This document shows, piece by piece, positions 48,627 to 63,594 of a stretch of DNA of 64,000 nt. Below the pieces are notes generated by a model. It saw only the letters and a program-made list of their open reading frames with translations, was not told where the DNA came from and searched no databases. The first letter of the stretch is position 1. Each line of letters opens with the position of its first letter. The stretch is from contig NZ_NINW01000036.1 in NCBI RefSeq assembly GCF_002188465.1, positions 1 through 64,000 on the forward strand, in the 5' to 3' direction. Origin of the DNA: Pigmentiphaga sp. NML080357 (GTDB lineage Bacteria > Pseudomonadota > Gammaproteobacteria > Burkholderiales > Burkholderiaceae_B). The position numbers were made by a program, and so were the translations under genes.

Positions 48627-48711
48627 CCACGCCGCCTTGATTCGCGCTTTCTGGGCGAGCCGATCCGTACATTTGGATCGAGACGTCGTTGTCAGCGAAC
48701 GGCTCGAATAG
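48619..48711 (+). pseudogene. 30-codon stub in the AbiEii toxin position
   Basis: An ATG overlaps the last 8 bp of the AbiEi gene, the usual arrangement for an AbiEii start. The frame (MSDHAALIRAFWASRSVHLD, 30 residues) stops at 48709-48711, 11 bp before the jetA start. It is far too short for the roughly 300-residue toxin. It may be a toxin remnant left by a deletion, or a leader frame that keeps ribosomes moving into jetA. Confidence 0.5.
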
Positions 48712-48721
48712 GCAGCCCATC

Positions 48722-50197
48722 ATGGCACTGGACCACCTCACACTCACGACATACCGCGATCGGCATCCTGCATGGCGATTGCTGGCCTCGCCACATGCGC
48801 CATTGGTGGCAAGCTTCCTGTACCGGGTGTTCGTCGCGCCGAACGTGCGGGTGACGAGCGAAGCGGATCTGGCCGAGATGCTGGAAGACGAGTTGTTTGC
48901 CCTGCGCGAAGCCCTCGGCGCCGAGGTGTATCCGAAAGCCGCAACCGAATACCTGAATGACTGGTGCGCGCCAGACAAGGGCTGGCTGCGCAAGTTCTAC
49001 AAGCCCGGCACCGACGAGGCCCAGTTCGACCTTACCCCTGCCACGGAAAAGGCCATCGCCTGGCTGGTGTCGCTGACTGAGCGGCCTTTCGTCGGTACCG
49101 AATCGCGCCTGCTGACCTTGTTCGCGCTGCTGGAGCAGATCAGCACCGGAAGCCAGGCTGATCCAGCCAGGCGCCTGGAGGAACTTCGTCGCAAGCGCGA
49201 CGAGATCGATGCCGAGATCGGACGCGTCCTGTCCGGCGATGTGCCGCTCATGGATGACACGGCCATCAAGGATCGCTTCCTGCAATTTCAGCAACTGGCG
49301 CGCGAACTGCTGAGCGACTTCCGTCAGGTGGAGCACAATTTCCGCCAGCTCGACCGCAGCGTCCGCGAGAAAATCGCGTTGTGGGACGGCAGCAAGGGGG
49401 CTTTGCTCGACGAAGTCATGGGCGAGCGCGATGCCATCGGAGATTCCGACCAGGGGCGCAGCTTCCGTGCGTTCTGGGATTTCCTGATGTCCAGCCGTCG
49501 CCAGGAAGAACTGTCCGCACGGCTCGACCAAGTCCTCGGCCTGCCTGCCGTGGCCGCGCTCAAGCCGGAGCCGCGCACCCGCCGGGTTCACCACGATTGG
49601 CTGGAAGCGGGCGAACATACCCAACGCACGGTGGCGCAGTTGTCGCAGCAACTGCGCCGCTTCCTGGATGACCGGGCCTTCCAGGAAAACCGTCGCATCC
49701 TCGAACTGTTGCGCAGCATCGAGATCAAGGCGCTTGCATTGCGCGACACGCCACCGGCCGGCGAAGTGATGCGCCTCGACGAGATGGGCGCGGACATCGC
49801 CTTGCCGCAGGAACGCCCCCTGTTTGCGCTCCATGCCAAGCCACGCCTGGCGGAACTGATACTTGAATCCGGCGAGGACGACGACATCGACACCGCACGC
49901 CTGTTCGACCAGCACGTCGTGGACAAGGCCCGCTTGCGTGAGGCCCTGCGGCAGGCATTGCGGCAACAGTCGCAGATCAGCTTGCGCGCGTTGCTGGAGA
50001 CTCAGCCGCTGCAACAGGGATTGGCCGAACTGGTCACCTGGCTGGAACTGGCCCACGCGGGAAACCGCGGGCTGGATGGCCTCAGGGCCACGGTGGATGA
50101 CGATGCGCAGGAGATCGTCGAATGGGCCATGCAGGACAGCGATGGCTCGACGGTACGACGGCGGGCGCGAATGCCGCGCGTGATCTTTACGCGCTGA
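48722..50197 (+). CDS. jetA: Wadjet subunit JetA (DUF3375, MukF-like kleisin)
   Basis: A 491-residue DUF3375 protein, the kleisin-like subunit of the Wadjet SMC complex that recognises and cleaves circular plasmid DNA. ATG 48722 gives the family start MALDHLTLTTYRDRHPAWRL; a TTG 33 bp upstream is out. The N-terminal winged-helix part (about 1-130) is followed by alpha-helical segments rich in Glu/Arg (RRLEELRRKRDEIDAEIGRV) and a C-terminal domain after residue 380. It is the first gene of jetABCD; jetB follows after 31 bp. Confidence 0.93.
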   Translation: MALDHLTLTTYRDRHPAWRLLASPHAPLVASFLYRVFVAPNVRVTSEADLAEMLEDELFALREALGAEVYPKAATEYLNDWCAPDKGWLRKFYKPGTDEAQFDLTPATEKAIAWLVSLTERPFVGTESRLLTLFALLEQISTGSQADPARRLEELRRKRDEIDAEIGRVLSGDVPLMDDTAIKDRFLQFQQLARELLSDFRQVEHNFRQLDRSVREKIALWDGSKGALLDEVMGERDAIGDSDQGRSFRAFWDFLMSSRRQEELSARLDQVLGLPAVAALKPEPRTRRVHHDWLEAGEHTQRTVAQLSQQLRRFLDDRAFQENRRILELLRSIEIKALALRDTPPAGEVMRLDEMGADIALPQERPLFALHAKPRLAELILESGEDDDIDTARLFDQHVVDKARLREALRQALRQQSQISLRALLETQPLQQGLAELVTWLELAHAGNRGLDGLRATVDDDAQEIVEWAMQDSDGSTVRRRARMPRVIFTR

Positions 50198-50228
50198 ATG
50201 CAAGCTGCGACGGACAGAGCAAAGACCC

Positions 50229-50903
50229 ATGAACGATATGCATCAGGATGATCCAGAAGGCAGTGCCGAATCGCGCCCGCCCGTGGTAGCGGAACTCTCG
50301 CAACTGATGGTGCATTTGCTCAAAGGCGTGTTGTACCGCCAGGACGACGAGCGCCTATGGGCCAGTCTGCTGAACCTGCAGGCGCGTGTACGGGAGCAGG
50401 CGGCGGTGTTGTTGCTGGATCTGGTGCTGGACGAAGCCGAGGGCTACGCCTTCCTCAAAAGCCAGCCGGAGCCGGAGCATGCGGACGCCACACCTCGCCT
50501 GCCACGCCTGATCGCACGACGGCCGCTGTCCTATCCGGTCAGCCTGATGCTGGCCTTGCTGCGCAAGCGCCTGGCCGAATCCGACGCCGGCGGCGGCGAT
50601 ACCCGGCTGGTGCTGTCGCGCGAGGAGATCGCCGAACTGATGCGCGTGTTCCTGCCGGACGGCACCAACGAGGCGCGCCTCATCGACCAGGTCGATTCGA
50701 CCATCACCAAGGTGGTGGAACTGGGCTATCTGCGCAAGCTCAAGCCCGCTGCCGGTGCAAGTCAGCAGGCACCCCGCTACGAGGTGCGGCGCATCCTCAA
50801 GGCGTTCGTCGATGCGCAGTGGCTGGCCGACTTCGATGCGCGCCTGGAGGGTTATCGCACCGCGTTGTCAGGTGGCGATCGCGACAAGGAAGCCGGCCGA
50901 TGA
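50229..50903 (+). CDS. jetB: Wadjet subunit JetB (DUF4194, MukE-like)
   Basis: A 224-residue DUF4194 protein, equivalent to the KITE/MukE subunit. Segments LSQLMVHLLKGVLYRQDDER, LSYPVSLMLALLRKRLAESD and VLSREEIAELMRVFLPDGTN form the paired winged helices that bind the kleisin. RLIDQVDSTITKVVELGYLR follows. Its stop overlaps the jetC start by 4 bp (ATGA), fitting fixed complex stoichiometry. Confidence 0.93.
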   Translation: MNDMHQDDPEGSAESRPPVVAELSQLMVHLLKGVLYRQDDERLWASLLNLQARVREQAAVLLLDLVLDEAEGYAFLKSQPEPEHADATPRLPRLIARRPLSYPVSLMLALLRKRLAESDAGGGDTRLVLSREEIAELMRVFLPDGTNEARLIDQVDSTITKVVELGYLRKLKPAAGASQQAPRYEVRRILKAFVDAQWLADFDARLEGYRTALSGGDRDKEAGR

Positions 50904-53900
50904 ACGATTTTTCGCCACAGCAGCTCGATTTCGTGGCCGACGACAGCCGCGTCGGCTTTCGCCTGCAGCGGCTGGAAGTCCTGAACTGGGGCACATTCGA
51001 CCGGCGCGTCTGGCGCTATGAACTCGATGGGCGCAACGGCCTGCTCACTGGCGACATCGGTTCGGGCAAATCCACCCTGGTCGATGCCGTCACCACGCTG
51101 CTGGTGCCAGCGCACCGCATCGCCTACAACAAGGCCGCGGGCGCCGAAACGCGTGAGCGATCATTGCGATCCTACGTGCTGGGCCACTACAAGAGCGAAC
51201 GCAACGAAGCCACCGGCAGCGCTCGCCCGGTGGCGCTGCGCGACACCACCAGCTACAGCGTGATCCTGGGTGTCTTCCGCAACGAAGGCTACGGCCAGGC
51301 GGTCACGTTGGCGCAAGTCTTCTGGTTTCGCGAACCGCAGGGCCAGCCCGCGCGCTTGTTCGTGACTGTAGAGCGGGAACTGTCCATCACCGAGCACTTT
51401 TCCGGATTCGGCAGCGACATCAACGGCCTGCGCAAGAAGTTGCGCGCGATGGGCTGCGAACTGAACGACAGCTTCCCGCCCTACGGCGCCTGGTTCCGCC
51501 GCCGCTTCGGCATCGAGCACGAGCAGGCGCTGGAACTGTTCCATCAGACGGTTTCCATGAAATCGGTTGGCAACCTGACCGACTTCGTGCGCAGCCACAT
51601 GCTCGAACCGTTCGACGTGGGCAGCCGAGTCGAGGCACTGCTCGGCCATTTCGATGACCTCGATCGCGCCCACCAGTCGGTACTCAAGGCCAAGCGCCAG
51701 ATCGAGCTGTTGACGCCGCTGGTGGAGGATGGCCGTCGCCACGGGCAGATAGCTGCCGAGATCCAGGCGCTGCGCGAAGGACGCGATGCACTGCGCCCAT
51801 ACTTCGCCGGCTTGAAGGCAGCATTGCTGGAGAGGCGCCTGGAATTGTTGACTCAGGATGCGATGCGCTGGGATGCCCGCATCAAGCAACTGGGAGAGCA
51901 ACGAGACAACGCCCGAATCGAGCAGGGGAAGCTCGAAGGCGCACTGCGCGAGAACGGCGGCGACCGACTGCAACAACTCGCTGCCGCCATTCAGCAGCAG
52001 GAGGCAGAGAAACAGCAACGGCAGGAGAAAGCGGACGCCTACACCACGCTATTGACGCGCATTGGAGAAGCAGCGCCGGGAGACGAAGCTGCTTTCATGA
52101 CACAAAGATCCACCATCGGAGAACACGCCGAAGCGCTGCGCACAAGCATTGCGGACCACGATACGCAGATCAATGAAGACGGATATGCGCTGCGACGGGG
52201 TCAGGAAGAACACAAAGCGCTCAGCGACGAGATCGACAGCCTTGCGCGTCGCAAAAGCAATATCGATGCGGCGCAGGTGCGCATCCGCGAAGCCCTGTGC
52301 GCCGCTTTGTCCATCGCCGAGGAAGACCTGCCCTTTGCCGGTGAACTGATCCAGGTGCGCGAGGACGAGCGCGACTGGGAGGGCGCGGCCGAACGCCTGC
52401 TGCATGGCTTCGGCCTGTCCATGCTGGTGCCGGATGCGCACTACAAGGACGTGGCCGATTGGGTGGAGCGCCAGCACCTTGGCACGCGACTGGTGTACTT
52501 CCACGTGCGTGCACGCAAGTCCACGCAGGCCGTCAGCCTGCACCCCCAGTCGCTGGTGCGCAAGCTGCTCATCAAGCCCGACACGCCGCACTACGACTGG
52601 CTGGAACGCGAACTGCACCATCGCTTCGACCTGGCCTGCTGCGACAGCACCGAGCAGTTTCGCCGCGAGACCCGCGCCATCACCCGCGCCGGACAGATCA
52701 AGGACCCGAGCGGGCGCCACGAAAAGGACGACCGCCGCCGCATCGACGATCGCAGCCGCTACGTGCTGGGCTGGAGCAACGCCGACAAGTTGCGCACCTT
52801 GCGTGACGAACGCGAGGGCCTGGAACAGCGAATGGGCGATATCGGTCTGCGCATTGCCGACGCGCAGCGATTGCGCAGGCAATGCCAGGCGCAACTGGAA
52901 GCCTTGGCCAAGCTCGAAGTCTTCACCCGCTACAGCGAGATCGACTGGCAGGCGCCGGCGCGCGAGATGGCCCGTCTGACCGAGGAACGCGACCGCCTCA
53001 AGGCGGCCTCCGATACCCTGCGGGAACTGGAAAGCCAACTGGCGCAGGTCGTCGAACGCCTGAAGGAGATCGAAGGCGATCTTGGCGAGGCCCAAGGCAA
53101 GCGCGGAGAAATCCGCAGCAAGCACGAAACTGCCTTGGCACAGCACGCACAGGCTCTCGAAATCCAGGCGCAAGCCGCACTTGACGACAAGTTGCTGCAA
53201 ACCCTTGAGGGCTGGCGCGCCGAAGTCCTGGGCGACCACCAGCTCACGGTGGAATCCTGCGACAACCGCGAACAGGACGTGCGCAACGGCTTGCAGGCGC
53301 GCATCGATGCCGAAGACAAGCGTCTGACACGCCTGACCGAACGCATCATCAACGCCATGCGCGGTTTCAAGGAGACCTTCAAGGCAGAGACCGCCGAGAT
53401 CGACATCAGCCTGGCCGCGCTGCCCGAGTTCGAGCGCCTGATGAACGAGTTGCAGCGCGACGACCTGCCGCGCTTCGAGGCGCGTTTCAAGGAGCTGCTC
53501 AACGTCAATACCATCAACGAGATCGCCAACTTCAACGCCCAGCTCGCGCGCGAGCGGGAAACGATCAAGGAGCGGGTCGATGCCATCAACCAATCCTTGC
53601 AGGTGATCGACTACAACCCCGGACGCTACATCCGGTTGCTGGCGCAACCCAGCCCCGATGCGGAGATCCGCGACTTCCTGCAGGATCTGCGTGCCTGCAC
53701 AGAAGGCGCGCTGAGCGGCTCGGAAGACGAGCAGTATTCCGAGGCCAAGTTCCTGCAGGTCAAGGCCATCATCGACCGCTTCCGCGGCCGCGAGGGGCTG
53801 GCCGAGGTCGACCGGCGCTGGATGCAGAAGGTGACCGACGTGCGCAACGGCTTCCTGTTTTCCGCCAGCGAGCGCTGGCGCGAGGACGATGCCGAACACG

Positions 53901-54277
53901 AACACTATTCCGACTCCGGCGGCAAATCCGGCGGGCAGAAGGAGAAGCTGGCCTATACCGTGCTGGCCGCCAGCCTGGCCTACCAGTTCGGCCTGGAATG
54001 GGGGGCGGTGCGCTCGCGCTCGTTCCGTTTCGTCGTGATCGACGAAGCCTTCGGGCGCGGCTCGGATGAGTCGGCCCAGTATGGGCTGGAACTGTTCCGC
54101 CAGCTCAACCTGCAACTGCTGATCATCACGCCACTGCAGAAGATCCACATCATCGAGCCCTACGTGTCCAGCGTCGGCTTCGTGCACAACGAAAGCGGCC
54201 GCGAGTCGCGGCTGCGCAGCCTGAGCATCGAGGAATACCGGGCACAGAAGGCTGCCGCCACGGGAGGCGCTGCATGA
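50900..54277 (+). CDS. jetC: Wadjet subunit JetC (SMC/MukB-like ATPase)
   Basis: A 1125-residue SMC-type ATPase that drives DNA loop extrusion in the complex. Walker A is GDIGSGKST (residues 51-59). Long coiled coils occupy about 280-480 and 640-960, with a hinge-like domain between. The C-terminal head has SGGKSGGQKEKLAYT (signature) and FVVIDEAFGRGSDESAQYGL (Walker B and D-loop). All ATPase motifs are intact. The start overlaps jetB and the stop overlaps jetD, each by 4 bp. Confidence 0.94.
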   Translation: MNDFSPQQLDFVADDSRVGFRLQRLEVLNWGTFDRRVWRYELDGRNGLLTGDIGSGKSTLVDAVTTLLVPAHRIAYNKAAGAETRERSLRSYVLGHYKSERNEATGSARPVALRDTTSYSVILGVFRNEGYGQAVTLAQVFWFREPQGQPARLFVTVERELSITEHFSGFGSDINGLRKKLRAMGCELNDSFPPYGAWFRRRFGIEHEQALELFHQTVSMKSVGNLTDFVRSHMLEPFDVGSRVEALLGHFDDLDRAHQSVLKAKRQIELLTPLVEDGRRHGQIAAEIQALREGRDALRPYFAGLKAALLERRLELLTQDAMRWDARIKQLGEQRDNARIEQGKLEGALRENGGDRLQQLAAAIQQQEAEKQQRQEKADAYTTLLTRIGEAAPGDEAAFMTQRSTIGEHAEALRTSIADHDTQINEDGYALRRGQEEHKALSDEIDSLARRKSNIDAAQVRIREALCAALSIAEEDLPFAGELIQVREDERDWEGAAERLLHGFGLSMLVPDAHYKDVADWVERQHLGTRLVYFHVRARKSTQAVSLHPQSLVRKLLIKPDTPHYDWLERELHHRFDLACCDSTEQFRRETRAITRAGQIKDPSGRHEKDDRRRIDDRSRYVLGWSNADKLRTLRDEREGLEQRMGDIGLRIADAQRLRRQCQAQLEALAKLEVFTRYSEIDWQAPAREMARLTEERDRLKAASDTLRELESQLAQVVERLKEIEGDLGEAQGKRGEIRSKHETALAQHAQALEIQAQAALDDKLLQTLEGWRAEVLGDHQLTVESCDNREQDVRNGLQARIDAEDKRLTRLTERIINAMRGFKETFKAETAEIDISLAALPEFERLMNELQRDDLPRFEARFKELLNVNTINEIANFNAQLARERETIKERVDAINQSLQVIDYNPGRYIRLLAQPSPDAEIRDFLQDLRACTEGALSGSEDEQYSEAKFLQVKAIIDRFRGREGLAEVDRRWMQKVTDVRNGFLFSASERWREDDAEHEHYSDSGGKSGGQKEKLAYTVLAASLAYQFGLEWGAVRSRSFRFVVIDEAFGRGSDESAQYGLELFRQLNLQLLIITPLQKIHIIEPYVSSVGFVHNESGRESRLRSLSIEEYRAQKAAATGGAA

Positions 54278-55479
54278 CATGGAGCCGGCCCGCCGACCTT
54301 CGCGCGCAAATCGAACGGCTGTGGCAGCGCGGCGAGTTGCTGCGTGCCGTGGTCGGTGACGGCGCGCTGGGCTGGCCGTTGCGGCTGTCGCTCAAGTCGC
54401 CTTCCGCTGCCGATCTCAGCAACCGTTTCGATGCCGTGCGCGGCTGGGTGCGCGATATCAGCGCCATGCCACGCGTGCGCATCGAGTGGCGCGAGTGGAC
54501 GCACCGGGTACAGGGCCGGCAACGCCTGCCGGACACACTCTGGATCGATACGCTGGAAGACGCTCTGGCGATGATCGGCAAGACCGGAGATGGCCGCCGG
54601 TTCCAGGCACTCTGGCAGCAAACTGCCGAAGCGCAACCCGCACTGCTGCCATGGCTGCACAGATCACCGTTGCAGACCCTGGCACTGGCCGAACACTGGC
54701 CGCGCCTGCTGGCCGTGGTAGCCTGGGTGCAGGCCCATCCGCGCCCAGGCGTCTATCTTCGGCAGGTCGACGCGCCGGGCGTGGACAGCAAGTTCATCGA
54801 AGCGCATCGCGGCATACTGGGCCAATGGCTGGACCTGGCCTTGCCGACTGAAGCCATCGAGCCTGCTGCAACCGGGATGGCCGGGTTTGCCCGTCGCTAC
54901 GGCTTTCTGGAGAAGCCCGTTCGCATCCGCCTGCGCTTGCTCGATCCGCAGCTGCTCCAGCTTCCCGGCTGCACGGGACTGACCGACATCACCCTGGATG
55001 AGGACAGCTTCGCCACGCTCGCCCTGCCTGCGCAGCGTGTTTTCATCACCGAAAACGAGGTGAACTTCCTGGCGTTCCCACCGGTCTCCGGTGCCATCGT
55101 CGTGTTCGGTGCCGGCTATGGCTGGGGAGCGCTTGCCCGAGCCAACTGGCTGCATCGCGCCTCTCTGCACTATTGGGGAGACATCGATACCCATGGCTTT
55201 GCCATTCTGGACAGCCTGCGCAAGTATTTCCCGCTAGCCGCTTCGTTCCTCATGGACCGCTCTACCCTGATGGCCCACGCACTCCAATGGGGTGAGGAGC
55301 CCCTCGACAAACGCCATATGTTGCCCTTGCCCCGACTGGTCGATGAGGAGGCAGCTCTCTACGACGACTTGCGTAATGACCGAATCCGGCCACAGCTGCG
55401 GCTGGAACAGGAACGCATCGGCTATCGCTGGCTATGCGCGGCGTTGGCGACAACAGCCCAGGACGATTCTCGGCCGTAG
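54274..55479 (+). CDS. jetD: Wadjet subunit JetD (DUF3322/DUF2220, Toprim-like nuclease)
   Basis: A 401-residue nuclease subunit. The N-terminal DUF3322 domain covers about 1-190. The DUF2220 domain carries the Toprim-like metal residues: Glu in FITENEVNFLAFP (about 250) and the Asp pair in WGDIDTHGFAILDSL (about 303). With JetABC it cuts plasmid DNA after loop extrusion stalls. The start overlaps jetC by 4 bp. It ends 21 bp before the convergent hipA stop, so the operon ends here. Catalytic residues look complete, so the system is probably active. Confidence 0.93.
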   Translation: MTWSRPADLRAQIERLWQRGELLRAVVGDGALGWPLRLSLKSPSAADLSNRFDAVRGWVRDISAMPRVRIEWREWTHRVQGRQRLPDTLWIDTLEDALAMIGKTGDGRRFQALWQQTAEAQPALLPWLHRSPLQTLALAEHWPRLLAVVAWVQAHPRPGVYLRQVDAPGVDSKFIEAHRGILGQWLDLALPTEAIEPAATGMAGFARRYGFLEKPVRIRLRLLDPQLLQLPGCTGLTDITLDEDSFATLALPAQRVFITENEVNFLAFPPVSGAIVVFGAGYGWGALARANWLHRASLHYWGDIDTHGFAILDSLRKYFPLAASFLMDRSTLMAHALQWGEEPLDKRHMLPLPRLVDEEAALYDDLRNDRIRPQLRLEQERIGYRWLCAALATTAQDDSRP

Positions 55480-55500: not shown

Positions 55501-56745
55501 TCAGGGCGTGGTCGATTCGACGAACGCCGGCTCGAAATCCAGCAGGTCGGTACCGCGCATGCCCAATCCCCGGGCCACTGCGCGCCAGCCCGCCACGGCC
55601 TGGGCCACTTCACTCCAGATCGCCTGCGCTTGCACAGCATCCAGCCTGAAATACGACGCGGCGGCCATCAGCATGTCACGGCTGTCGATGACGCCTGTGT
55701 CCTCGGTCAGCCAGGTCTTGCTCTCTCGACGGTCGCCCGGCATCGGGTTCAGATCGAAGGCCGGCGACAGGCGCCAGCCGCGCTGGCGCGCGTCGTACAG
55801 GAAGCCGGTGTTGCGCAGGTGATCGTCGGTGTTGCAGATCAGGAAGTTGAAGACCAGCCGGCGCCACAACTCATGGATGTCAGCGATCGGATCGGCGCCC
55901 GACTGAAGCAGCACATCCACCAGTTCGGTGTAGGCATGCGTCGCATCGCGGCCATCGGACTGGAGCATCGTCGCGGCCGACACGTAGGGGATGCGAGCGC
56001 CGTCGTCGGTGCGGTCGAAACGCCGGATGACGGCGACCGCCGTGCCGCCGATCACTTCCACGCGCGCCGGCGCCACCCGGATGCCGGCCTTGGCCGCCAG
56101 TTGCATGGCCAACACTTCGCCCCGGATCACGTCGCGCCGATCCGCCTGGCTGGGAAACTTGCCGACCGCCAGGCGTCCATCGATGTCCCGCACCGTGGAC
56201 TTCGGCCTGGCACCACCCAGCGACGTGCCTTGCCCCAGCAGGTAGCGCAGATCCTGCGCGCTTTCCGTTCCGTCCTCCAGGGCGCGGGCCGCGTGCAGCA
56301 CCTTGTCCAGTTCCACCAGTGGCGGTACGTGCCGGTTCGCTCCGCCGGCGCGCAGGTAGGCGCGAGATTGCGGATCGAACAGGCGCAGCGCGCCGACGCG
56401 CGCCTCGTCGTCCACCCACATCACGAAGTCCACCGGGTCCAGTGCAGGCGTGTCGCGGTCTTCCTGCCGCAGCTTCGCATGGGCGCGCCGGATCACACGC
56501 TCGCCCCAGGCGTCGGGCGCGGTGTCCTCCAGCGCGAGGAAGAACACCTGACGGGGATGCTGCACGCCGGCCACCGGCTGGAGATCGGGCGACAGCGTGA
56601 AGAACCGGACATCCTGCAGCCAGCCTTCGTCGTAGCTGAACGCGCTGCGCCGGCCGCTGCCCAAGTGCAGGCGCCCCACGACCAAGCCACTTGCCCCCAA
56701 GTGGACTTCGAGGTCCGGACGTCGCGCAGGCCGATGCGTTGCCAT
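55501..56745 (-). CDS. hipA: HipA-family serine/threonine kinase toxin
   Basis: A 414-residue HipA-type kinase. The Gly-rich loop is GQGTSLGGARPKS (171-183). The catalytic loop is NTDDHLRN (305-312; Asp and His as in HipA), and the metal-binding Asp is in SPAFDLNP (D331). Escherichia coli HipA phosphorylates glutamyl-tRNA synthetase and causes dormancy; the target here is not known. Its ATG overlaps the hipB stop by one base (TGATG), so the antitoxin is made first. It is convergent with the Wadjet operon. Confidence 0.92.
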   Translation of the reverse strand: MATHRPARRPDLEVHLGASGLVVGRLHLGSGRRSAFSYDEGWLQDVRFFTLSPDLQPVAGVQHPRQVFFLALEDTAPDAWGERVIRRAHAKLRQEDRDTPALDPVDFVMWVDDEARVGALRLFDPQSRAYLRAGGANRHVPPLVELDKVLHAARALEDGTESAQDLRYLLGQGTSLGGARPKSTVRDIDGRLAVGKFPSQADRRDVIRGEVLAMQLAAKAGIRVAPARVEVIGGTAVAVIRRFDRTDDGARIPYVSAATMLQSDGRDATHAYTELVDVLLQSGADPIADIHELWRRLVFNFLICNTDDHLRNTGFLYDARQRGWRLSPAFDLNPMPGDRRESKTWLTEDTGVIDSRDMLMAAASYFRLDAVQAQAIWSEVAQAVAGWRAVARGLGMRGTDLLDFEPAFVESTTP

Positions 56746-57152
56746 CAGAAGCCCTCCAGGTCATCGGCAGGCGCGGGCGCATCGCCTTTGTCAACGGGTG
56801 CTGCCTGCCGCTTCCTGCCGGCAGAGGTGCGTACCCGCTGCGGCAACTGCTCCCGCACCAGTTCCATGCCGAGCGCATCGTTCTCCAGGGTCATCGCCTG
56901 GGCCAGGTCATCGAGCCGGCCCAGCACGTGCAGCGCGCGCAGGAAGGTGTGCAGCGCGGTGCCGGGATAACCATCCTCCATGCGCCTGACGGTGCTCAGG
57001 GACGTGCCGATGCGCTGCGCCAGGTCTTCCTGGCTCAGGCGGCGCATGCGCCGCGCCGCCGAGATGTCCTGCCCCAGGCGGCGCAGCGCACGCGCGACGG
57101 GCTGCGGCATCGCCACCTGCGCACCAGAGCGCTTTTGCTCGGAAGAAGACAT
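56745..57152 (-). CDS. hipB: HipB-family XRE antitoxin
   Basis: A 135-residue antitoxin and repressor. The helix-turn-helix is in RMRRLSQEDLAQRIGTSLST and VRRMEDGYPGTALHTFLRAL (about residues 38-75). A long charged, flexible C-terminal tail (about 100-135) is likely the part degraded by proteases. It neutralises HipA and represses the operon through the palindrome directly upstream. It is longer at both ends than E. coli HipB (88 residues). Confidence 0.9.
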   Translation of the reverse strand: MSSSEQKRSGAQVAMPQPVARALRRLGQDISAARRMRRLSQEDLAQRIGTSLSTVRRMEDGYPGTALHTFLRALHVLGRLDDLAQAMTLENDALGMELVREQLPQRVRTSAGRKRQAAPVDKGDAPAPADDLEGF

Positions 57153-59856: not shown

Positions 59857-60088
59857 ACTGGCCCGCGGCCATGCGCGGCTGCGCGCGCTGATCGAGTTCG
59901 CGCTGGGCGAAGGCTGGCACGTGAAACGCACGCGCGGCGGGCACCTTATGTTCACCAAGCCCGGCTGCGCCGCGATCTATACCAGCTCGACTGCAAGCGA
60001 TCACCGCGCTAGCCGCAACGCTCGCGCGCAGCTTCGCCGCGCTGATCGACAGGCACTGACGGCATCTCGGGAGAGCAGCGATGGCTGA
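59840..60088 (+). CDS. Small HicA-fold protein between parA and parB (shi position)
   Basis: An 82-residue protein, overlapping parA by 17 bp and the parB-like gene by 8 bp. GGGGGAG lies before ATG 59840. The sequence EGWHVKRTRGGHLMFTKPG, then IYTSSTASDHRASRNARAQL, follows the HicA mRNA-interferase fold: G-W, basic strand, G-[GS]-H with the catalytic His, F-x-x-P, and a final helix. No HicB antitoxin is encoded beside it. ICEclc carries a small gene, shi, in the same position, with effects on cell growth. Toxic activity here is inference. Confidence 0.7.
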   Translation: MANTHELARGHARLRALIEFALGEGWHVKRTRGGHLMFTKPGCAAIYTSSTASDHRASRNARAQLRRADRQALTASRESSDG

Positions 60089-61739
60089 GCCGACGCCGCA
60101 GGACATGGCCGCCAAGCTGCTGGCCAAGGGCTTCGAACGCAGCGGTTCTTCGGCCGCGGCCTTGACCGACCCCATTGCCGACACACCGATGGTGGTGACG
60201 CTGGACGAGCTGCGCCCCTATGAACATGACCCGCGCGTGACGCGCAACCCGGCCTACGAGGAAATCAAGGCGTCGATCCGCGAACGCGGGCTGGACGCGC
60301 CGCCGGCGATCACCCGCCGGCCGGGCGAGGCGCACTACATCATCAGGAACGGTGGCAATACGCGGCTCGCCATCCTGCGCGAACTGTGGAGCGAAACCAA
60401 GGAAGACCGCTTCTTCCGGATCGCGTGCCTGTTCCGCCCATGGCCGGCGCGCGGCGAAATCGTGGCGTTGACCGGACACCTGGCCGAGAACGAAGTGCGC
60501 GGCGGGCTGACCTTCATCGAGCGCGCCCTGGGCATCGAGAAGGCGCGCGAGTTCTACGAGCAGGAAAGCGGTCAGGCGCTGTCACAGAGCGAACTCGCGC
60601 GACGGCTGACAGCCGACGGCTATCCGGTGCCGCAGTCACACATCAGCCGCATGAACGATGCGGTGCGCTATCTGCTGCCGGCGATACCGAACCTGCTCTA
60701 CGGCGGCCTGGGACGACATCAGGTGGACCGGCTCGCGGTACTGCGCAAGGCGTGCGAGCGCACCTGGGAGCGGCGTGCGCTGGGCCGCACCGTCGCCGTG
60801 GACTTTGCCACGCTGTTTCAGGATGTGCTGACGCAGTTCGACACGCAGCCGGACGACTTCTCGCCGCAGCGGGTGCAGGACGAGCTGGTCGGCCAGATGG
60901 CCGAGCTGCTGGAGACGGACTACGACACGCTGGCGCTGGAGATCGACGACAGCGAAAGCCGCCAGCGTGCGCTGACCAGCGAACCGGCGGCGCTGACGCC
61001 TCCGGCAGCGCCTGTCGTGCCTGCTGCTACTTCCGCACCGGTCTCAGCGCCTCAGCAGCCATCCGGGTCGTCCGTACCGCGCGACACCACGCCGGTCGCG
61101 CCTCCGGCGCCAGCAGCGACAGCGCCTGCATCGTCCAAAGCGCCGGAAGACCAGCGAGGACCACGCGACGAGCGCCTGCAAGCGCACATCGTGACACCGG
61201 CACCGACCACCGAGCGCCTGCAGTCCATCCAGCGGATGGTCGCCGACCAGCTTGGCGACAAGCTGCCCGACTTCGAGGCCGATGCGCTGCGTGCGATCCC
61301 CGTACAGGTCGGCGGGCTCTATCCCATCTCGGACGTCTGGTACGTCGAGCCGGGGCTGGACGCGCCGGATCGCCTGCGCGTGCACATCGCGCAGTTCGCG
61401 CGCGAAATCGGCGAGGAAGCGGCCGTCGCCGACCACATCGAGGCCAGCGTCGGCGGCATCGGCTTCGTCTGCGTGGCGCCGTCCGTGGGCCAGGCGAAGG
61501 CGTTGCCGGCGTTCGCGCGGGCGGTGCTGACCCTGCTGCATGTGCTGAGTGCGGCTCCGCCCTCCGCGAACGGATTGGACCGCGCGCGGCTGGCCGACGA
61601 GCTGGCGGCGCTGCTGCATGGCCACGGCGGCTCGGCCACACGCCTGAGCGATGCTGCGCTGGTGAAGCTGTTCCGTCTGCTGCGCCTGGCGCGCCGGCTG
61701 CTGGATCTGGAAGCCGGCGTAGCGAGCCAGGATTCCTGA
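60081..61739 (+). CDS. parB: ParB-domain protein (partition / ICE regulatory)
   Basis: A 552-residue protein. The ParB nuclease-like domain covers about 35-130 (VVTLDELRPYEHDPRVTRNP, then RNGGNTRLAIL in place of the GERR box). The helix-turn-helix is in LSQSELARRLTADGYPVPQS (about 170-195). A Pro/Ala/Ser-rich linker (about 305-370) leads to a conserved C-terminal domain. It overlaps the HicA-fold gene and is followed by the DUF2857 gene after 17 bp. In ICEclc, genes of this type act in partition or, as BisD, in the late activation switch; which applies here is unclear. Confidence 0.82.
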   Translation: MAEPTPQDMAAKLLAKGFERSGSSAAALTDPIADTPMVVTLDELRPYEHDPRVTRNPAYEEIKASIRERGLDAPPAITRRPGEAHYIIRNGGNTRLAILRELWSETKEDRFFRIACLFRPWPARGEIVALTGHLAENEVRGGLTFIERALGIEKAREFYEQESGQALSQSELARRLTADGYPVPQSHISRMNDAVRYLLPAIPNLLYGGLGRHQVDRLAVLRKACERTWERRALGRTVAVDFATLFQDVLTQFDTQPDDFSPQRVQDELVGQMAELLETDYDTLALEIDDSESRQRALTSEPAALTPPAAPVVPAATSAPVSAPQQPSGSSVPRDTTPVAPPAPAATAPASSKAPEDQRGPRDERLQAHIVTPAPTTERLQSIQRMVADQLGDKLPDFEADALRAIPVQVGGLYPISDVWYVEPGLDAPDRLRVHIAQFAREIGEEAAVADHIEASVGGIGFVCVAPSVGQAKALPAFARAVLTLLHVLSAAPPSANGLDRARLADELAALLHGHGGSATRLSDAALVKLFRLLRLARRLLDLEAGVASQDS

Positions 61740-62320: not shown

Positions 62321-63517
62321 ATGACCACGGGCGGCGCACCACGGCGCGAAGGCCCCGTTGCGCTGTCGGCGTTGTTCGACGAGGCGCTGCGGCACCTTGA
62401 GCCGAAGGAACCGGCGCAGGGCACGGCGCCGGCCGCCGACGGTTTCCTCTACAGCGGCAACCGCCATGAGAGCGTGCCGCGCCGACTGTTCCTCGACCGG
62501 CGCCTGACGCCGCTGGAGCGCAACGCCTGGCAGGTGTTTCGCCTGCAGATCAACGACGACGGCGTGACCGCCTTTCCCACCTACGACCAATTGCGCCCCT
62601 ACCTGGCCTCGATGCCCTGCGCGGCGCAGGCATCGCACGAGACCGTGGCGCGCGCCCTGACGCTGCTGCGGCTGACGCGCTGGCTGAGCCTGGTGCGACG
62701 ACGGCGCGACCCGAAGACCGGCCGCATCCAAGGCAACCTCTATGTGCTGCACGACGAACCGCTGTCACCCTTCGAGGCGATGCAGCTCGACCCGGACTAC
62801 CTGGGTCTGGTGAGCCAGGCGCTCACGCACGCGGCGAAGGCGGTGCAGGTCGTAGGCATGAACACGCTGCGGGAGATCGCCGAAGACCCGCTGCTCAGCG
62901 GGCGCACGCTGCCGACCCGATCGCAGGTGCTGGCGCAGCGCATGGCGCGGCATGGCTGGACGACGCCAAGTTATCCACAGGAGGGTGCCGACCACGAATC
63001 CGAAGACGGCGAGGAAGCCCTTCTTCGGAATGGCGTGCGCCCGTCTTCGGAATCCGAAGCAGGGCTGGAACCCGCGCAGGACGGCCATCTTCGGATTCCG
63101 AAGGAGGACCGTACAGTACGTATGAATCGTATAAATAAAGAAGTACGTACAGTACCGCGCGCGAGGGCCTTGCAGAACCTGCGGCTACCCGAGCGCTTCC
63201 TGCGCCTGAAGGACGAGCAACAGGCCGGTGCGCTGGTGGCCCTGCAGCAAGTGGACGAAGCGCAGCGCCAGGCGGTGCTCGACGAGTGGGCGGCGCGCAG
63301 TGGCGGCAGCACGGTGCGCAATCCCGCCGGCTACCTGTTTGGCATCATCCAGAAGGCGATCCGTGGGGAGTTCAAGGCCTGGGCGGGCGACAGCGCCACG
63401 GTGCCGCCTGCTTCCCGTCCACCTGCGTCGGCACCGGCGCCATCGGCACCGCCGGTATCCCCCGAAGTGGCGCGCGCCCACTTGGCGCGGCTGCGGGCGG
63501 CCCTGCGCGACCCGTGA
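62321..63517 (+). CDS. STY4528-family island replication protein
   Basis: A 398-residue protein of the STY4528-type pathogenicity-island/ICE replication family. The conserved N-terminal part (about 40-210) contains GNRHESVPRRLFLDRRLTPL and ETVARALTLLRLTRWLSLVR, a winged-helix pattern like plasmid initiators. A low-complexity linker (about 215-280) follows, then LRLPERFLRLKDEQQ and a C-terminal helical domain with NPAGYLFGIIQKAIRGEF. It starts 3 bp after the DUF2857 stop. The linker is encoded by DNA with a DnaA box, palindromes and AT-rich repeats (next entry), so this gene may contain its own origin. Confidence 0.85.
   Translation: MTTGGAPRREGPVALSALFDEALRHLEPKEPAQGTAPAADGFLYSGNRHESVPRRLFLDRRLTPLERNAWQVFRLQINDDGVTAFPTYDQLRPYLASMPCAAQASHETVARALTLLRLTRWLSLVRRRRDPKTGRIQGNLYVLHDEPLSPFEAMQLDPDYLGLVSQALTHAAKAVQVVGMNTLREIAEDPLLSGRTLPTRSQVLAQRMARHGWTTPSYPQEGADHESEDGEEALLRNGVRPSSESEAGLEPAQDGHLRIPKEDRTVRMNRINKEVRTVPRARALQNLRLPERFLRLKDEQQAGALVALQQVDEAQRQAVLDEWAARSGGSTVRNPAGYLFGIIQKAIRGEFKAWAGDSATVPPASRPPASAPAPSAPPVSPEVARAHLARLRAALRDP
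62971..63155. other. Candidate replication origin inside the STY4528 gene
   Basis: A perfect DnaA box TTATCCACA (62971-62979) is followed by four CTTCGG/CCGAAG sites. Two are 15-bp palindromes, CTTCGGAATCCGAAG (63045-63059) and CTTCGGATTCCGAAG (63089-63103), 44 bp apart. Partial copies lie at 62996-63005 and 63023-63031. Then comes an AT-rich patch flanked by direct repeats GTACAGTAC (63111-63119 and 63147-63155). DnaA box, iteron-like sites and an unwinding-type element in this order resemble a plasmid origin. Confidence 0.6.
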
Positions 63518-63594
63518 CCGGCCGAGCTATCCCCAGGGGATAGCTGGGACAGGGAGCCTTCCGGCGGGTCGATCCGGCTGCACCCTTGCCAAGG

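Follow-up and report, generated by a model that had tools for sequence, protein, structure and literature searches.

A probable replication origin within the linker of an ICE-borne STY4528-family gene that codes for its likely initiator

By what route an ICE of the kind borne by Pigmentiphaga sp. NML080357 is copied as an excised circle remains unsettled: a relaxase and oriT are implicated for ICEclc, and PFGI-1 is said to lack a Rep protein. The stretch of DNA analyzed here, a window of 64,000 nucleotides at the start of contig NZ_NINW01000036.1, raises this question in concrete form, with an initial annotation having placed a hidden replication origin inside one of its genes. Is this DNA indeed an origin, and is the protein encoded around it the cognate initiator?

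The gene in question (62321..63517, + strand) codes for a 398-aa protein that belongs to the STY4528 family (NF040582, E 5.1e-120; 401.4 bits against a curated cut-off of 130), and which we propose to be a replication initiator carrying its own origin. It lies downstream of, and in the same module as, the gene for a ParB-family protein (TIGR03764, E 3.6e-121; 60081..61739, + strand), and genes for PFL_4669 and topoisomerase III are found farther along the same contig. A RelB/RelE-type toxin-antitoxin pair is lodged between the STY4528 and PFL_4669 genes at 63645-64218. Elsewhere on the element we observed a Wadjet-type operon, JetA-JetB-JetC-JetD, at 48689-55479. Wadjet acts on circular plasmids, and its presence on an element possibly replicating as a circle is curious. 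Adjacent to it, on the minus strand at 55501-57152, is a two-gene module that may code for a HipA-like protein and a HipB-like regulator.

The structure model of the STY4528 protein (mean pLDDT 63.5, pTM 0.54) joins a winged-helix N-domain to a helical C-domain through a linker, all encoded on the + strand. The N-terminal winged-helix domain spans residues ~37-214 (62429..62962), and includes a predicted recognition helix at residues 105-118 (SHETVARALTLLRL; 62633..62674), two positions of which, 106 and 107, covary with the half-site described below. The C-terminal helical domain spans residues 291-347 (63191..63361) and displays, in the family, a weak RepC-type initiator likeness. The intervening residues 215-282 (62963..63166), which contain the proposed oriV and had been described at the outset as encoding a mere linker, are indeed predicted to be disordered (pLDDT <50).

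All the elements that the initial annotation had listed in this region, namely a DnaA box, four CTTCGG sites, two dyads 44 bp apart, an AT-rich stretch and its bounding repeats, were recovered in place. The DnaA box TTATCCACA (62971..62979, + strand) is the sole exact one in the window, where 0.07 would be expected. The entire 5.73-Mb genome has 10, with one in each STY4528 gene and three clustered at C1:117546-117736; the motif is not enriched genome-wide, because a reversed control pattern gave 15 matches against these 10. The box is followed by half-site 1 (62999..63005, - strand; TCCGAAG on the + strand), half-site 2 (CTTCGGA; 63023..63029, + strand), and two perfect CTTCGGA dyads, dyad 3 (CTTCGGAATCCGAAG; 63045..63059) and dyad 4 (CTTCGGATTCCGAAG; 63089..63103), the latter starting 44 bp after the former. 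The dyad CTTCGGAWTCCGAAG occurs at only four places in the genome, two per STY4528 gene, with each pair 44 bp apart. The second STY4528 gene (L085; G000 C10:103229-104167) is identical to that of the window in its recognition helix and half-site. Beyond dyad 4 lies the proposed unwinding element, comprised of a left arm GTACAGTACGTA (63111..63122), an AT-rich core (63123..63143) and a right arm TACGTACAGTAC (63144..63155), and the lowest-GC 40-bp stretch of the gene spans the core and arms. The word GTACAGTAC, found at 63111-63119 and 63147-63155, has no other copy in the window (0.03 expected), and its arms double as an 11-of-12 inverted repeat. The four sites and the AT core occupy 157 bp, or 185 bp with the DnaA box included. 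Repeated 7-mers in this linker form 51 pairs, which is more than in any of 300 synonymous-codon shuffles (mean 16.1, maximum 49). In the window linker alone, neither the copy number of the commonest 7-mer (p 0.13) nor the count of perfect inverted repeats (p 0.095) reached significance, and the latter had p<0.05 in 17 of 33 family members; this palindrome count proved too crude, and was replaced by repeated words and dyad geometry.

We compared the window with 80 related loci, these being the best 80 of 280 obtained with six peptide patterns, of which two fall within the linker; the resulting codon alignment comprises 81 coding sequences, 73 of them distinct. Synonymous diversity over codons 217-279 (63 codons) is 0.072, as against 0.216 for amino-acid-matched codons elsewhere in the gene, and not one draw among 20,000 amino-acid-matched ones reached so low a value. 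Of all 63-codon stretches in the gene, the five lowest overlap this region (0.070-0.072), and the lowest non-overlapping one stands at 0.175. When 15-codon stretches are considered, synonymous diversity is 0.03-0.11 over codons 206 to 285 and 0.12-0.41 elsewhere, with the lowest values of the gene falling on the linker (residues 215-282). The amino-acid identity of the region, at 0.79-0.92, is below that of most of the N-domain. Thus, the earlier suggestion that the DNA rather than the protein is under selection is upheld, with synonymous sites constrained inside the region relative to outside and no accompanying rise in protein identity. This constraint is unevenly spread: at third positions, diversity amounts to 0.024 within the motifs, compared with 0.177 for the intervening spacers and 0.212 for the N-domain. 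Half-sites 1 and 2 are invariant across the 73 genes, and they are true half-sites, because the bases at their would-be partner positions vary (diversity 0.09 and 0.30, respectively). The DnaA box is present in 70 of the 73 distinct genes and the two perfect dyads in 65, the dyads being 44 bp apart in all 65; the distance from the box to the first perfect dyad is 74 bp in 68 of 70 genes and 118 bp in the remaining two. Gene conversion was considered as a source of the low synonymous diversity and rejected, given that amino-acid identity is not raised and the spacers vary. Hence, the linker region is selected as DNA, with the constraint acting on the motifs and not on the spacers.

Relatives of STY4528 are found in many Proteobacteria and plasmids; three genome searches recovered members above the family cut-off in 16 of 369, 11 of 398 and 12 of 293 genomes. 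The distant members, which also come from plasmids and viral contigs, are 24-46% identical to the window protein. Most of the divergent linkers bear other dyads of like geometry at the same place, for example of the GTTCGG, GTTCTC, GTTTCC, CTTCCA, CTTCAA or GTGCAA type, and their AT-rich core is often flanked by TAG and CTA triplet arrays. In the linker of one distant member (L154) we noted two DnaA boxes of opposite orientation, several dyads of the AGGGAA type, and a core that is very rich in AT and flanked by TAG and CTA arrays. Repeated words outnumber those in synonymous-codon shuffles for 26 of 33 members (p<=0.05), the test being failed by L091, L092, L094, L095, L097, L098 and L116. 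Dyads that have perfect 6-bp arms around a 3-bp center number 39 against 3.3 in shuffles (25 of the 33 members; eight were omitted as near-duplicates or fragmentary); among dyad spacers, the odd ones (1 to 11) show a 5- to 12-fold enrichment, and those of 0, 2 and 4 only a 1.2- to 1.4-fold one. For base composition and DnaA boxes we used 42 of 60 aligned members, dropping 18. The AT minimum of the gene falls within the linker in 40 of these, all except L109 and L112. Ten members have an exact DnaA box in the linker, where 0.7 would be expected, and 32 have none; boxes with one mismatch amount to 14 against 5.0 expected. Five of the 10 members with an exact box (the window, L069, L085, L134 and L146) have the CTTCGG half-site of the window. 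Arms of the GTA/TAC kind were seen in 33 of the 42, albeit with a loose pattern and without a shuffle control.

The spacing of the sites in these linkers follows the helical repeat. Across 85 spacings they cluster at 22, 33, 44, 54 and 66 bp (resultant 0.73 for a period of 11); in this analysis we adjusted the sites of L091 and L103 visually, and the phasing tests reuse its spacings. When 13 members were taken, one per half-site class, 35 of 48 spacings, including one of 243, fell at most 1 bp from a multiple of 11, against 13.1 expected; an earlier count gave 42 of 57 (16 members, 15.5 expected; spacing of 243 omitted, three members sharing a half-site). All these member statistics ignore phylogeny, counting related members as independent.

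The half-site also tracks the protein. Residue 106 predicts base 1 of the half-site without exception in 29 of the 60 aligned members, with R, K or N accompanying G, H or E accompanying C, and T accompanying T. It ranks first of 238 columns (z 8.9), and its mutual information of 0.94 bits equals the full entropy of base 1; residue 107 comes third when bases 2-3 are scored, and sixth with bases 4-6. The 31 members left unscored are near-duplicates, those without a clear repeated half-site (among others the ASTST/SSTST/SSRST group, L101, L116, L147, L148, L155 and L156), and L154 and L146, which were omitted though they had repeated half-sites. Upon adding the latter two, residue 106 stays first of 241 columns and base 1 is matched in 30 of 31, L154 being the exception with T paired with A, not T. 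Restricting the set to one member per distinct residues 105-108 (15 members) again puts residue 106 first, now of 250 columns (z 3.8). In these covariation tests, we assigned the half-sites of L091, L099 and L105 visually. With fully automatic half-sites (30 members), residue 106 is second of 244 (z 6.3), behind residue 57, and there are two R exceptions, L099 and L105 (R once with C and once with A), in which the automatic phase is shifted or falls on a triplet array. Outside the scored set, L147 and L148 share the SHET helix residues of the window yet have degenerate dyads. On the strength of this covariation, with no binding data at hand and ParB outside the comparison, we posit that STY4528 is the likely binder of the half-sites and dyads.

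What is the kinship of this protein? Searches of the PDB by fold, with the whole model and with the N-domain, returned nothing significant (no match at E<=0.001), and a sequence search of the PDB with STY4528 recovered only two matches, both unrelated eukaryotic chains. Against BFVD, the N-domain model gave six matches at E<=0.001, which are predicted phage HTH proteins, and a match at E 6.2e-4 is named a putative replicon initiation protein. A phage replication-initiation PHROG is matched by some divergent members (best 2.8e-7), and an O-like PHROG weakly by two of 18 divergent members (best 3.8e-5); the window protein itself matched no O family in the PHROG search. In Pfam, HTH_36 is matched by five of the 18 members (best 4.3e-11) and RP-C_C by four, only at E 0.026 or worse; none of the 16 families matched by the 18 members at E up to 1 is a plasmid-initiator domain such as Rep_3. 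The RP-C N-terminal domain gave no match in the window protein or the 18 members, which therefore do not qualify as RepC proteins of the repABC type. Nevertheless, the middle and C-terminal part of the STY4528 profile weakly matches (E 8.4e-4) a genuine RepC, confirmed as such by RP-C at 1.2e-43. Such kinship in the family, with initiator and, weakly, O-like PHROGs, with HTH_36 and with RepC, counts in favor of STY4528 being an initiator.

STY4528 further matches 33 PLSDB records, and in 17 the match covers 80% or more of the protein. We went through four circular records in full. Three of these, Citrobacter pRHBSTW-00903_3, pSGI4 and pZDHY95-VIM-2, have no other annotated plasmid-type initiator, though gene tables in PLSDB have gaps, and all three include a DnaB-type helicase and a STY4534-family 'ICE replication protein'; the fourth, Pantoea pNBBC01-4, has a separate replication initiation gene. 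All four, as well as pKLC102 (first 30 kb), possess dyads and an AT-rich core in the linker. Integrase genes are present on all four circular records, and some of these may represent ICEs that assembly captured in their excised form. Within the genome of the window, a full DnaB_C match is on contig C3 and a weak one on C44, with none on C18, the contig of this ICE, or on C10.

Taken together, we hold it highly probable that STY4528 is a lambda-O/RepC-like initiator with oriV inside its own linker, with both binding and replication being inferred. In the mechanism we envisage, the winged-helix domain would engage the CTTCGGA half-sites and dyads, with its molecules stacked on one face of the DNA because the sites are 32, 22 and 44 bp apart, or about 3, 2 and 4 helical turns. 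Host DnaA would bind the adjacent DnaA box, and the complex might then open the AT-rich core between the GTACAGTAC arms. A replicative helicase would be recruited via the C-terminal domain, and this is probably host DnaB, because the contig of this ICE yielded no DnaB match. Finally, the excised circle would be copied plasmid-style, probably alongside relaxase-driven replication. The selection on the DNA, the layout and the residue-base covariation behind the first of these steps are supported by computation, and binding itself and the subsequent steps are conjectural. Against this proposal it must be said that no experiment stands behind the origin reading, that DnaA boxes are missing from 32 of the 42 members, and that seven of 33 failed the repeat test.

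The dyads could alternatively be the parS centromere of the ParB encoded just upstream, with the AT core being incidental, but we regard this as improbable. Palindromes are typical of parS, and ParB TIGR03764 was present in 26 of the 28 STY4528-bearing genomes searched, because of which linkage cannot separate the two proteins as candidate binders. However, it is the STY4528 helix that the half-site tracks (ParB was not put through the same test), and the DnaA box and AT core suit an origin. Moreover, a separate 17-bp palindrome, CTATCCCCNGGGGATAG, makes the better centromere candidate. Its first copy, CTATCCCCAGGGGATAG (63527..63543), lies outside the proposed oriV, with further copies at C18:64423-64439 and C18:66335-66351 (L144 4424-4440 and 6336-6352), and each of the three lies in a gap that separates likely genes of this ICE. 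A single exact copy is on the contig of the second ICE, with no other exact copy genome-wide. Allowing up to two mismatches, 75 of 80 loci have it in the 400 bp that follow STY4528, and additional copies occur elsewhere in 76 of the 80 fetched loci. With this repeated intergenic palindrome preferred as the centromere, the parS interpretation of the dyads is weakened. Slimmer still is the chance that the dyads are operators, serving STY4528 or a different ICE protein in the transcriptional control of the replication module: their helical-turn spacing would suit operators too and initiators often autoregulate, but they lie 0.7 kb into the gene rather than where it begins, in company with an AT core and a DnaA box. 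Hardly tenable is a constraint on the mRNA (hairpins, translation) or the linker peptide instead of the DNA, for even though the palindromes would give short RNA hairpins and this clade shows fair conservation of the linker peptide too, synonymous sites are constrained without a rise in protein identity, one word is read in different frames (LLRN, SSESE, LRIPK), the partnerless half-sites are fully conserved, and phasing by 11 bp is characteristic of duplex DNA.

An origin recognized by STY4528 hence remains our preferred reading of the linker, and we lean, with distinctly less assurance, towards a wider proposal. STY4528 would typify a large family of ICE and plasmid initiators, in which origin and initiator co-evolve within one gene, and residues of the helix set the half-site, providing each lineage with a private origin. 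These ICEs would then be plasmids that learned to integrate, with a plasmid-type replication besides the relaxase-driven one, and two ICEs that share a code, which is the case in this genome, could disturb one another like incompatible plasmids, perhaps by competing for the initiator. If true, this would explain how a common ICE family is copied after leaving the chromosome. The proposed initiator, origin and residue-level code make the question directly testable, and a sequence-based incompatibility typing of ICEs could become possible.

ICEclc is presumably a relative of the ICE studied here. Transient replication of ICEclc is described as largely TraI- and oriT1-dependent, which counts against the oriV reading, and for the residual cells its authors mention alternative mechanisms (PMC6561031). 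The main text on the P. aeruginosa ICEclc family mentions neither oriV nor STY4528 (PMC10732049). SXT/R391 and ICEBs1 are integrated elements that replicate after excision using oriT and a relaxase (PMC4489591); unlike them, SGI1 shows plasmid-like replication after excision. Putative oriVs have been named in Haemophilus islands of the ICEHin1056 type (PMC2258188). Among the publications found to name STY4528, none concerns replication by its title, and we found no origin inside a STY4528 gene in titles or the beginnings of abstracts, an absence that remains unproven with subscription journals mostly uncovered.

A precedent is PFGI-1, for which a putative oriV was predicted immediately upstream of PFL_4669, comprising four 23-bp palindromes of the GTTCGG type in an A+T-rich setting, in an element stated to encode no Rep protein (PMC2647930). 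Accordingly, the part of the earlier claim that places the origin inside the gene stands, but the origin was not wholly hidden, having been predicted at the homologous place in PFGI-1. What is new is its position inside the gene, the identification of STY4528 as the likely binder, and the extension to this branch. In pKLC102, four palindromes of the PFGI-1 type lie inside STY4528, as in the window. Right after STY4528, pKLC102 also has an array of 57-bp repeats (L133:14416-15456), several units of which have a GTGGTGCCACTGGCACCAC palindrome; separate from the in-gene dyads, this is perhaps its centromere. Unlike in pKLC102, no tandem repeat was found between STY4528 and topB in this ICE. The TAG-triplet arrays beside the AT core of many divergent members recall the DnaA-trio module (BUS) of chromosome origins. 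A published search for DnaA boxes with three or more trio motifs nearby used a 16-bp limit (PMC8287927); the strict module was rejected for the window, where the GTACAGTAC arms are about 130 bp from the box, beyond this limit.

The initial annotation had likened the arrangement to iteron plasmids; the lambda ori in gene O and the repABC oriV in repC are closer parallels. In the repABC plasmids, repC suffices for replication, oriV is in or near its AT-rich central part, and silent changes there abolish replication (PMC3155836). The presence of oriV within repC is akin to what we propose here, and a genuine RepC is the weak match of the STY4528 profile noted above; unlike STY4528, repC of p42d is without iterons or DnaA boxes (PMC3155836). 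In lambda, four iterons and then an AT-rich segment lie within gene O, the minimal origin being 164 bp, and the iterons are bound by the N-terminal half of O (PMC4488673). The STY4528 gene, with repeated sites and an adjoining AT-rich element inside the initiator coding sequence, agrees in layout with a lambda-O-type self-embedded origin: its four sites and AT core come in the same order and over a similar 157 bp, with two half-sites, two 15-bp dyads and a DnaA box in place of the 19-bp iterons of lambda. Under our proposal, STY4528 would join lambda O and RepC as a further lineage whose origin resides within the gene of its own initiator.
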